Shown here: in pieces, positions 20,822 through 56,459 of the stretch
How positions within the stretch are numbered: the stretch's first letter is position 1
How the letters are laid out: each line of letters opens with the position of its first letter
Assembly (NCBI GenBank): GCA_010093605.1
Contig: MU004190.1
Coordinates: 1,315,125-1,379,124 of the forward strand
Length of the DNA stretch: 64,000 nt
From: Lophium mytilinum
Lineage: Eukaryota > Ascomycota > Dothideomycetes > Mytilinidiales > Mytilinidiaceae
Direction: 5' to 3'
Notes under the pieces: generated by a model
Told to the model about the DNA's origin: nothing
Seen by the model: only the letters and a program-made list of their open reading frames with translations
Databases searched by the model: none
Program-made: the position numbers and the translations under genes

Positions 20822-22870
20822 ATGGTTTCCGCCAGTGTCAACAAGACCAATCTGCACCCTGCCGGCGTCCAGTGAGTCCAATACCTGCCCACTGCTCTCG
20901 TCGAGCTCCAGCTAACCTTCCTCTTCCTTTCAGGCCGCAGCGGGAGCATACCGAGATCGAAGAAGAGCTCCATGACAAGGCCCACATCGACTACGACCGT
21001 GTCGCCATTGTACGCTAGCCCCACCCTTATCACTCCCTGCTCGAACGGCAGCTAACATCCCTCCCAGGTCGCGAACCCCTCCGTCGCCGCCCTCTATGAA
21101 GACGCCCTAGTCTACGAGACCGGCTCCGCCATCACATCCTCCGGCGCATTGTCGGCATATTCCGGTGCGAAGACTGGCCGGTCACCCTCAGACAAGCGCA
21201 TCGTGAAGGAAGAGAGCTCAGAAAATGAGATCTGGTGGGGCCCGGTCAACAAGCCGATGACGCCCGATGTAAGCTTCCCTCTCTTTCCCTTTCTACTCTC
21301 ATGGCGGTTGGTCGTGTGCCAGATAGATGGTCCGACGTCATACTGGCATCGACCATAACCGAGGATGGTCGTCGGATCGGGATGTCCATGCCATGTGCTG
21401 CATGTGGTGTGGCGTTCCCCCGCATTGATTTTCCTGCATGGGTGCTTTGCTTTTTCCGCCCTATCGCCGCTCACGTGATTCCTCGCGAACATGTACTGAT
21501 TGCTGTTCCAGGTCTGGAGAATCAACCGAGAACGTGCCATCGACTACCTAAACACCAGGAATCGCATCTACGTCGTCGATGGCTTTGCCGGCTGGGACGA
21601 GCGGTACAGGATCCGGGTCCGAGTTGTCTGCGCCCGCGCTTATCATGCTCTCTTCATGCGCAACATGCTCATCCGGCCGACGAAGGCTGAGCTCGAGGGC
21701 TTCCACCCGGATTACACCATCTACAACGGCGGTGCGTTCCCGGCTAACAGGTACACCTCTGGTATGACCTCTGCGACCTCAGTTGCCATCAACTTCAAGG
21801 ACCAAGAGATGGTCATCCTCGGAACTGAGTACGCTGGTGAGATGAAGAAGGGTGTTTTCACCGTTCTCTTCTACGAGATGCCGGTTAAGCACAACGTCCT
21901 TACCCTTCACTCCTCCGCCAACGAGGGCCAGGACGGCGACGTCACTGTCTTCTTCGGTCTCTCCGGTACTGGCAAGACTACCCTCTCTGCCGACCCCAAG
22001 CGTGCCCTCATCGGTGATGACGAGCACTGCTGGAGCGACAAGGGCGTGTTCAACATCGAGGGAGGCTGCTACGCCAAGACGATTGGTCTGTCCGCAGAGA
22101 AGGAGCCCGATATTTTCGGCGCCATCAAGTTCGGCTCGATCCTGGAGAACGTTGTCTTTGACCCGGAGACCCGTGTTGTTGACTACGACGATGATACTCT
22201 GACAGAGAACACTCGTTGCGCCTACCCGATTGAGTACATCGAGAACACCAAGATTCCCTGCATCAGCTCAGGCCACCCGAAGAACATCATCCTCTTGACC
22301 TGCGACGCTCGCGGTGTGCTTCCTCCCATCTCGAAACTAAGCACCGAGCAGACCATGTACCACTTCATCTCTGGATACACCTCCAAGATGGCCGGCACCG
22401 AGCAGGGCGTAACAGAACCCACCGCAACCTTCTCGTCGTGCTTCGCCCAACCCTTCCTGGCCCTACACCCCATGCGCTACGCAAAGATGTTGGCGGAGAA
22501 GATCGCCGAGCACGGCTCGAACGCCTGGCTCCTCAACACCGGCTGGGTCGGAGCCGGTGCCACCACCGGTGGCAAGCGCTGCCCGCTCAAGTACACTCGT
22601 GCCATCCTCGACGCCATCCACTCAGGCGAGCTCGCAAAGGCCGAGTACGAGACCTACGAGACCTTCAACCTATCCGTGCCAAAGACCTGCCCTAACGTCC
22701 CCGACGAGCTGCTCAACCCCGCGAAAGCGTGGAGCGGCACCACCGACTTCAAGGGCGAGGTCAAGAAGCTGGGCACGCTGTTCATGGAGAACTTCAAGAA
22801 GTACGAGGATCAAGCTACGACCGAGGTCATCAAGGCCGGTCCACATGTGTGTTGCTGCCAAAAAGACTAG
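20822..22870 (+). CDS. pck1: Phosphoenolpyruvate carboxykinase (ATP)
   Basis: Four exons: 20822-20871, 20934-21009, 21068-21268, 21512-22870; about 561 residues. ATP-dependent PEPCK catalyses oxaloacetate + ATP to PEP + CO2 + ADP, the committed step of gluconeogenesis, in the cytosol. Visible signatures include [42 protein letters not shown], the P-loop [11 protein letters not shown] near residue 258, the metal-site segment [22 protein letters not shown], and [15 protein letters not shown]. The start at 20822 is chosen because CACCACCATGG is a strong context and [13 protein letters not shown] matches the usual fungal N-terminus; an upstream ATG near 20670 would add ~50 residues. The 243-nt third intron is unusually long. 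The enzyme ends [12 protein letters not shown]. Confidence 0.95.
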
Positions 22871-51914: not shown

Positions 51915-52885
51915 CTATGGTTCTCGATATTCCTTTGCAGCATCATCGTACCCAGACCCCTTGTCATCCCCCTTCTTTCCGCTCTTCTTCTTTTTGACCT
52001 CCATCTCCACAATCCCCTCACAATCTCCATCCCCAGATTCTCGCACCCGGGCCTCCTCCACCCTAGCCCTTTCCCTTTCCTCCGCCCTCTCCCCAAACTC
52101 CCTCTGCCTCACCGATCTCCCATGCCCATAATCCGTCAGCTCCCGCATAAGCGTCCCTTGCCGCTCCACCTCCTCCCACCTCCCCGCAGCCACCGCCCCC
52201 TCCACCAAAATCGCCACTACCCCCGTCCAGCTCTGCGGCACCACCAACGGCCTCAACCCCCGCGAAATCTCCCCCTTTTCCTCCTCCGTCGGCGCCCTCG
52301 CATCAACCCACCTCCCGCGGCACCCACGTGACAAGCGCCAGCGCCACAGGCATCGCGAACGCCTCCCCAAACAGCCGCGCGACGCTCTTGGACCCCGCAA
52401 AAACCTCCTCCTGCGCCAGCTCCCCATCGCGCAGCTCGCGCAGCGCAGCCTTCTCGAGGTCCGCGACGGCAACGGCTTTGTACCCCTCGCCGCTAATAAG
52501 GCCATGAGCGAGGTACTCATGGTCGCCTCTCCCGATGAGCTGCGGCGCGTGCCAGACCTCCACGCCGTTGCCGAGGGCCTGGGTGTCGAAGACAGCGAGA
52601 TGCGGGTGGCGGCCGCGGGGGCCGTACTCGCCGTCGGCGAAGCGCAGCGCGACGGCGAAGGAAGCCGCCCAGGAGCTGAGTTCGGTCTCCGGGAGCGAGG
52701 CGCCGCGGTAGTGGGATGCGGCCATGGCGTGTAGCTCGGTGTGGGTCAGGTCGTATGCGTTCGCGTGGCCGCGGCCGCGGTTGAAGGCGGGCGGGGAGAC
52801 GCGGGAGATGCTGTTTAGACCTGCTTCGCCGCCGCCGGATGCGGAGTGTCAGCCGCGGAAGAGGTAGCGGGGGACGTGGTATTAT
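51915..52885 (-). pseudogene. Decayed DUF7587-like gene
   Basis: The minus strand reads PRYLFRG, TGA (52849-52851), HSASGGGEAGLNSISRVSPPAF, then MAASHYRGASLPETELSSWAASF, VALRFADGEYG, HLAVFDTQALGNGVEVWHAP and EYLAHGLISGEGYKAVAV, which match the fungal DUF7587-type pattern (FRGWxS...SGGG; a SSWxxSxxVALRFA block; HEYLxHGxIxG). A Trp codon is expected where the TGA stands, and a further TAA lies just before PRYLF. The frame ends at 52303, while the natural continuation (GRWVDARAPTEEEKGEISRG onward to 51915) is in another frame, so a frameshift near 52310-52330 is likely. At least two or three disabling changes are seen. A shortened protein from Met 52725 (140 residues) remains possible. Family assignment is from memory. 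Confidence 0.6.
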
Positions 52886-53279
52886 CGAAAGTCTGGAGGT
52901 TGGGGGTCAGTTTGGGCTTGTTGGTGGGTCAGAGTAGGGGGGTTGTTACTTTCGAGCCTGTTTTTGTTGGCTTTGTCTATCTTGAGTTATGCGCAGACTT
53001 CGGATTTTTCGAGCAGATGGTATTGTTGGTTCGAGAGCGGAATTGCAGATTAAGAGGTGATGTCGTAGTGCCAGCGGGCTTATATTGTATAGTTGAGACA
53101 TAGTAGAATGTTTTGGATGAAGAAAGGTCATCTAGCTTATTCCAACGTAGGGAGTAGAAAGCTCTAGAGTAAGAACATGATAGGTAGCGGCTTAGTCAAT
53201 ACAGAACGATAGACCCCATTCAACAGAAACCGATCGATTTCCACACCCACCAGACCCCTCGTATCTCAAGCGAACCCCC
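52886..53279. other. Intergenic
   Basis: About 390 bases holding the upstream region of the decayed gene and the 3' end of the NmrA-like gene. No other feature. Confidence 0.35.
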
Positions 53280-55388: not shown

Positions 55389-56459
55389 CTAGATCTCCTC
55401 CATGTTGCCTGCGGGCTCCTCGTCTTCGCCTGACGCATAGCTGCCGACAGAGCTCATCTCATCGTCAAGGTCGCTTTCTTCGTCCGCTTCGTCGGCGGCG
55501 TCTTTGGAGGCATATTTGGCGACGTATTCTGTGAATATATTAGAATGTTGTTGGAACAGAAGTGGAAAAGACTGCCACGAGAAGTCCATGTTCTGTGATT
55601 TCAGGGGCACGAAGTGGCGACTCACCCTTCACCTTTGCATCATAACTCTTCGGCTCCCGCATCAGCAACGCTGCAGCCTCGCCGTTCAAAGGATCGGTGG
55701 GGTTTGGGTAGCGGAGAAGTTGAGGTAGGAAGACTTCGAAGATGTTGATCATGTCATACATTGGTGACCAGGTCTGGTTGATGACATCCAGGCATACGGA
55801 GCCAGATCTTCATGAGAGTTAGTCGCAGTCTTGGGGTTCCAGGACAGGGGTCATACAACTCGTCGATGTTGGGGTGGAATATGCGATTCACGAAGCCAAT
55901 ACTGGGGCTCTTGTAGGGATATTGGTCGGGGAGTTCGACGTGGATCTTCCATAGACCGCCGGCGAAGGGTGCTGTGTTAGTGTTAGTGAGTGAGAATCTA
56001 CGGTTATATTGGGGACTACCCACTCTCTTCAGGGCCCTTGAATCGGACGTAGAACTCTTGCCTGTAGTACGTTAGGGCTATGTTGAAGCCGAGTAGTGTA
56101 GTTGGTAGAAAGATAGTGTAACGAACACTGCGCCGGGTTAGCTACCATCCGCGGAGCCAGTATCGGGCAACTTCAACATACTATTGTCATTGACCAGAGT
56201 TACTTCGTAGTCGCTCATCAACCTGTTCAAGTCTCAGCCTGGTGTTCAGATATATCGGGACTGGTAGGAGCTTTAGGGGGCGTAGTAAACGTACATCCTA
56301 TTCTTGTTAGCGGAGTTCATCATCAGTGGAATGTAGTGACTTACTTCATGACCTGAACGCGCCGCAAGAAAGCTCGTTAGTCTTTGCCCTTCGCATAGCT
56401 CCAGGTCATGTCTGGAAGGCACTTACGTCCGTCTCGATACGTCTCTTTGGGCTGCTCAT
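55389..56459 (-). CDS. ubc8: Ubiquitin-conjugating enzyme E2, Ubc8/UBE2H, with micro-exons
   Basis: Nine exons: 56459-56427, 56352-56345 (8 nt), 56297-56295 (3 nt, GAT), 56222-56182, 56127 (1 nt, T), 56061-56024, 55971-55857, 55807-55626, 55528-55389; 186 residues. The E2 that in yeast attaches ubiquitin during glucose-induced FBPase breakdown. Splicing through all micro-exons gives [22 protein letters not shown] and [20 protein letters not shown] (each shown within 22 residues of the start region), the expected Ubc8 sequence. Then [19 protein letters not shown], active Cys85 in [27 protein letters not shown], and an acidic tail. Introns flanking the tiny exons have GTAAGT/GTACGT/GTATGT/GTTCGT donors; GCTAAC or CCTAAC branches in introns 2, 4 and 5; all acceptors are CAG or TAG. 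Without the 3-nt exon one residue is lost; without the 1-nt exon the frame breaks or needs a weak GTTGAA donor. Confidence 0.9.

Follow-up and report, generated by a model that had tools for sequence, protein, structure and literature searches.

We present the prediction of a one-nucleotide exon in a fungal UBC8 gene, where it is accompanied by further micro-exons of 8 and 3 nt, all three falling within 226 nt. The gene occupies the minus strand between positions 56459 and 55389 of a 64-kb stretch of Lophium mytilinum DNA (hereafter the window, meaning the whole stretch that was analysed), and constitutes an intact Ubc8/UBE2H-type E2 gene with a complete open reading frame. Its predicted product of 186 residues is assembled from nine exons of 33, 8, 3, 41, 1, 38, 115, 182 and 140 nt. 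We consider it highly probable that the 3-nt exon GAT and the one-base exon T are, both together, real as predicted exons, and we offer the micro-exon model as a strong prediction rather than as proof.

Identity of the gene and its product

The predicted product matches the Pfam UQ_con domain (PF00179) over residues 12-142 with an e-value of 1.1e-39. Among solved chains its best match is 8pmq_E (named E2-24 kDa; 232 bits), which we take to be yeast Ubc8, followed by 2z5d_A and 8pjn_2 (named E2 H; 226 bits each), presumably human UBE2H; thereafter come chains at 211 and 192 bits, the remaining ones among the matches listed reaching at most 97 bits. The alignment with 8pmq_E is gap-free over residues 1-155 and spans all three micro-exons, and the core of the predicted protein is of the same length as that of 8pmq_E. 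The translation carries IFHPNID, with the HPN motif, and SGSVCLDV, with the presumed active-site Cys. A catalytic Cys and an HPN motif are marks of E2 enzymes of the Ubc8/UBE2H class, whose ubiquitin-conjugating activity is exerted with the GID/CTLH ligase. We read the gene as a probably functional fungal UBC8 coding for a UBE2H-class E2, and hold this reading, with the splicing proposed below, to be very likely as a whole.

In a scan of viral contigs two stretches fit the pattern that was sought and neither encodes a relative, while a scan of prokaryote genome contigs recovered relatives in three of 91 candidate stretches (records named as one archaeon and two bacterial MAGs), which are uninformative at 28-35% identity and include no fungal relative. 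The PF00179 domain was found in none of the 14 control genomes.

Predicted exon-intron organization

The original prediction had placed micro-exons at 56352-56345 (GTCATGAA), 56297-56295 (GAT) and 56127 (T), between introns of 47-74 nt. These positions are exact, and the first five introns measure 74, 47, 72, 54 and 65 nt, a range typical of this genome. Exon 1 (33 nt; 56427-56459), called from the translation and the gene finder described below, is followed by intron 1 (74 nt; 56353-56426), in which inspection of the signals reveals GTAAGT...GACTAAC...CAG. The 8-nt exon 2 (56345-56352; V M K-), recovered by the path listing as well, precedes intron 2 (47 nt; 56298-56344; GTAAGT...CGCTAAC...TAG). 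Exon 3 is the trinucleotide GAT (56295-56297), which completes the Lys14 codon and opens that of Met15 with two bases, and which we examined by chance trials in addition to the path listing and gene finder. It is succeeded by intron 3 (72 nt; 56223-56294; GTACGT...GGCTGAG...CAG, with a weak branch site) and by exon 4 (41 nt; 56182-56222), called from the translation and the gene finder, which starts on the third base of one Met codon and stops after the first base of the following one. Then come intron 4 (54 nt; 56128-56181; GTATGT...AGCTAAC...CAG), the single-nucleotide exon 5 at 56127, subjected to the same three analyses as exon 3, and intron 5 (65 nt; 56062-56126; GTTCGT...CCCTAAC...CAG). 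The lone T is embedded in AG-T-GT, with a donor, a branch site and an acceptor on either side, and forms the middle base of the ATG Met codon in VNDNMQEF, a codon to which three exons contribute one base each. If the outer sites are retained and the T is left out, the length is not a multiple of three.

The remainder of the gene has larger exons. Exon 6 (38 nt; 56024-56061) extends from the last base of this Met to the first base of Thr and is followed by intron 6 (52 nt; 55972-56023; GTGGGT...CACTAAC...CAG), exon 7 (115 nt; 55857-55971), which holds the HPN motif, intron 7 (49 nt; 55808-55856; GTATGA...GACTAAC...AAG), exon 8 (182 nt; 55626-55807), which holds the presumed active-site Cys, intron 8 (97 nt; 55529-55625; GTGAGT...TTCTAAT...CAG) and exon 9 (140 nt including the stop codon; 55389-55528), which encodes an acidic tail. 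All of these lie on the minus strand. Intron 8, taken as one intron, yields a family-like sequence and harbors no hidden micro-exon. The branch motifs claimed for introns 1, 2, 4 and 5 are present, and the description of donors and branch sites as mostly good is borne out, the branch of intron 3 being the weak one.

Enumeration of splice paths

For exons 1-4 we listed every path from the start codon to ATGAGCGAC with 0-3 introns having a GT or GC donor, an AG acceptor and a length of at least 36 nt, and for the region of the lone T every path between GTC (56194) and GAG (56057); family scores were computed against a short segment of yeast Ubc8. The 8864 paths tried for exons 1-4 gave 611 open in-frame products, and of these the path with the 8- and 3-nt exons comes out on top by family score (67; runner-up 55), by summed splice score (43.1; runner-up 36.6) and by splice score per intron (14.4; runner-up 14.0, for the path without GAT). 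In the T region 18 of the 69 paths tried are open, and the one-base path again heads the list by family score (26, the next being 18 for a form with an additional serine), by splice sum (25.5, the next being 20.2 and the serine form 7.7) and by score per intron (12.7; next 10.8). Raising the minimum intron to 40 nt (58 T-region paths tried, 18 open) left the top order identical, as did dropping products that departed from the reference length by over 25 residues, which affected none of the 611 and one of the 18.

The sequence VNDNMQ arises from a single one of the 18 open paths, and that ending in VMKML from a single one of the 611. To this extent the original claim that the family residues can be encoded only if all three micro-exons are spliced in is upheld for the exact family sequence; there are near alternatives, VNDNSMQEF and VMKLMSD.

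Homology-free gene prediction

We also applied a gene finder that uses codon usage, donor, acceptor and branch models and intron length, all trained on this window. The training set comprised 20 predicted genes with 94 introns (median 56.5 nt), from which the UBC8 introns were excluded for the splice models; the codon table, unlike the splice models, included an earlier, imperfect UBC8 model. At intron costs of -3, -4 and -5 the finder calls exactly the nine exons given above, and at -6 it returns no gene scoring at least 15 over the UBC8 start codon. With a flat length model it gives exons of 33, 8, 3, 104, 115, 182 and 140 nt, keeping the 8- and 3-nt exons, while exon 4 and the one-base exon are, by size, absent; this exon set without exon 4 is contradicted by homology. 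A first version of the finder had called the 8- and 3-nt exons and read through intron 5, because it was incapable of forming one-base exons. Intron 5 as coding sequence is rejected, since more than 20 residues would enter the E2 core. The Ubc8 identity, the strand, the exon borders and the three micro-exons of the original prediction were accordingly reproduced by the path listing and by the finder at the three lower costs, the limits being the cost of -6 and the flat length model, which lacks the one-base exon.

Elsewhere in the window, a cost of -5 yields one other internal exon of at most 9 nt, an 8-nt one at 52957. Lower costs give further micro-exons, four on the plus strand at -3 (2, 3, 6 and 0 nt) and one at -4 (0 nt), so the finder produces doubtful ones at low cost. 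The 8-nt exon (GCTCGAAA; 52950-52957, minus strand) belongs to a predicted gene at 51915-53101 and appears at all four intron costs; it may be spurious.

Signal strength and chance expectation

The likelihood of such signals arising fortuitously was gauged in trials that left the outer sites untouched, together with the final 30 nt of the downstream intron, and replaced everything else by shuffled sequence or by random stretches of the window, 20,000 times each. A T exon whose acceptor, branch and donor were as good or better turned up 3 times among the shuffles and 9 times among the random stretches, and a one-base exon of any base with such signals 23 and 12 times, respectively. For a 3-nt exon encoding K/R followed by M/L/V the corresponding counts are 0 and 7, and for one with any sense codons 0 and 9. 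In an earlier trial, which also varied the last branch site, the T exon was matched in 2 and 2 of 20,000 and an exon of any base in 15 and 2, and the 3-nt exon in 0 and 0 of 20,000, or 5 and 4 for any sense codons. Both sets of signals exceed what would be expected from chance.

Taken singly, the signals are of uneven strength. The branch site of intron 4, AGCTAAC, equals the best score among the 94 training introns; that of intron 3, GGCTGAG, is weak, with a score that 9 of the 94 do not exceed, and intron 5 has a moderate donor, GTTCGT, whose score 21 of the 94 training donors do not exceed. Seventeen of the training introns lie inside Pfam matches, in five of the 20 predicted genes; among them, position +3 is a purine in 16 and position +5 is G in 11. 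The branch A stands 10 nt from the end in introns 4 and 5 and 9-11 nt from it in five of the remaining six UBC8 introns, intron 1 having it at 24 nt; for the other predicted introns the median distance is 14. When the eight UBC8 introns were compared with one another the best similarity score was 16, and with other predicted introns it was 24; the maxima in five shuffled sets are 24-29. An origin from introners or by twin duplication is rejected, intron similarity not exceeding the shuffled maxima.

Without the micro-exons the introns would span 116-122 nt, beyond the longest training intron (106 nt, n=94) and the longest inside Pfam matches (91 nt, n=17), the training introns being themselves our predictions under a length model that favors short introns. 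In the flat-length run 13 of 56 introns are at least 105 nt long, and the length argument therefore hangs on the model. The splice variants are not distinguished by their Pfam UQ_con scores: the form with both micro-exons reaches 135.6 bits, that lacking GAT 134.9, that with an extra Ser 135.7 and that with both changes 135.0.

Alternative readings

Were the one-base exon absent, removal of one 116-nt intron (56177-56062) with the donor GTTGAA could join AATAGTAT to GCAAGAG, yielding VNDNSMQEF with an extra Ser in the loop that leads into the first beta strand. Such a product is in frame and stop-free, stands second of the 18 open paths on family score and does not suffer in its Pfam score from the added residue. 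Moreover, in our residue-level comparison near the micro-exons, which covered 5 of the 285 matched sequences, three of the five alignments (2z5d_A, 8pjn_2 and 1yf9_A) are shorter by one residue near the T site, and the length there can therefore vary; nevertheless, an extra residue occurs in none of these five. The donor is also very weak, its score of -1.04 lying below all 94 training donors (it was not barred in the finder because the cut-off was -1.5), and a far better one, GTATGT, is located only 4 nt upstream. Since this reading further leaves the AG-T-GT with its branch site, matched by chance in just 3 and 9 of 20,000 trials, unexplained, we regard it as very unlikely. The same coincidence weighs against the idea that one base is wrong in the sequence or assembly, or that a true frameshift exists, near the border of exons 4 and 6, whereby an ordinary 120-nt intron (GTATGT...CTACAG) would be removed and the T exon would be a product of chance. 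Its donor and acceptor are good under both the trained and generic models; however, the intron would be longer than all 94 training introns, the strong branch site and AG-T-GT in its interior would be accidental and the remainder of the gene is intact. We hold this to be the least probable of the three alternatives considered.

An alternative of the same kind concerns the GAT exon, in whose absence the whole 122-nt intron 56344-56223 would be removed to give VMKLMSD, with the first helix shortened by one residue. The path is in frame, has a good GTAAGT donor and a good acceptor and comes close in splice score per intron (14.0 versus 14.4 with GAT). Yet it deletes a residue found in all five alignments compared, none of which has an insertion or deletion in the VMK-M-LMSD region, it too invokes an intron exceeding every one of the 94 in the training set, and the GAT signals it would leave aside were never matched by chance among 20,000 shuffles and were matched 7 times among as many random stretches. 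In our estimation it is even less likely than the form with the extra serine, though not as improbable as the error or frameshift. Hence, we favor the model with all three micro-exons.

Proposed splicing

Under the micro-exon model, five short introns would crowd the N-terminal coding region, leaving exons of 8, 3 and 1 nt between them, and each intron would be recognized singly by intron definition. As every one of them offers a donor, a branch candidate, an acceptor and about normal length, intron definition can suffice. The five bases AG-T-GT contain both the intron 4 acceptor and the intron 5 donor, so two complexes could hardly reside there simultaneously; were U1 to pair with intron 5, it would mask the terminal AG of intron 4. 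We infer that introns 4 and 5 are most likely removed in turn, and that the lone T would enter the message as the middle base of ATG. The intron 5 donor scores 2.79 before removal of intron 4 and 3.04 after it (in the TAT context), so neither order of removal is clearly favored.

A more speculative proposal, to which we give little credence, is that the three micro-exons, with an obligatory order for introns 4 and 5, could in a row act as a sensor of splicing fidelity that sets the dose of Ubc8, because omission of the one-base exon shifts the frame, and that one-base exons may be widespread in intron-rich fungi, where they may go unseen because annotation tools cannot show them.

Genomic neighborhood

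About 33 kb from UBC8 the window encodes an ATP-type phosphoenolpyruvate carboxykinase (PF01293, 3.9e-192; 21500-22867, plus strand). Gluconeogenic enzymes of yeast are targets of Ubc8-GID; the proximity of the two genes is probably a coincidence. Other neighbors in the window are a Dbf4/Dfp1-like gene (PF08630, PF22437, PF07535; 61132-62619, minus strand), a PDR-type ABC transporter and a ketopantoate hydroxymethyltransferase. Together with the protein itself and with short introns that have CTAAC-like branch sites, these neighbors suggest a filamentous ascomycete.

Implications and comparison with known systems

If the model is true, UBC8 would, per the literature searched, bring the nuclear genes (or gene groups) that carry a one-base exon to three, two of them fungal, and would place such an exon in a conserved gene of the ubiquitin pathway alongside exons of 3 and 8 nt. 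It would serve as a clean test case of intron definition, there being no room for exon definition, and as a warning that annotation pipelines can mis-call genes of this kind. No report of a one-base exon in UBC8 was found in that literature, which consisted largely of freely accessible papers. The predicted exon is of a rare type that has precedents. The original prediction had called one-base exons extremely rare and had named one in a plant APC11 gene; that precedent stands, and the more recent fungal example discussed below had been missed.

In the account of Guo and Liu (2015, PMC4674806), the Arabidopsis APC11 gene has a constitutive one-base exon, the base being A, within a 422-nt stretch, and the authors favor the sequential removal of both introns, their tests being GFP fusions in protoplasts. 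As far as that account goes, APC11 resembles the UBC8 model in its one-base exon and in consecutive intron removal as the favored mechanism, and differs in belonging to a plant and in the identity of the base. Fungal stwintrons (spliceosomal twin introns), in the descriptions available to us, recall introns 4 and 5 of UBC8 in being adjacent short introns that are removed consecutively; however, in a stwintron the inner intron interrupts one of the splice signals belonging to the outer intron, whereas in UBC8 both introns are complete and one base of the message lies between them. A stwintron reading of introns 4 and 5 is rejected on inspection, as removing either leaves the donor, branch site and acceptor of the other unchanged; intron 4 is, furthermore, flanked by A and T and not by G and T as in stwintron type [D1,2]. 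Reports on placozoan cox1 and the Ophiostoma mitogenome concern, by their own account, mitochondrial genomes and another kind of intron.

The closest parallel is the one-base exon of Fusarium CYP621A, documented in 20 orthologs and by 18 RNA reads (Nelson and Syed 2026, PMC12940212) and presented by its authors as the second nuclear case, with no earlier one in a fungal gene. In what that report describes, the Fusarium exon is supported by orthologs and reads, while that of UBC8 is predicted from a single genome; the base is G in Fusarium (AGGGT) and T in UBC8 (AGTGT), and the proteins are a P450 and an E2 enzyme, respectively. Unlike CYP621A as described there, UBC8 is predicted to have exons of 8 and 3 nt in the same gene. 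Both genes are from filamentous fungi, and in both, on the evidence of that report and of our model, the one-base exon would lie between AG and GT, provide the second position of a codon within a conserved motif, and be accompanied by two short introns in place of one of about twice normal length (139 nt in Fusarium and 120 nt in UBC8).
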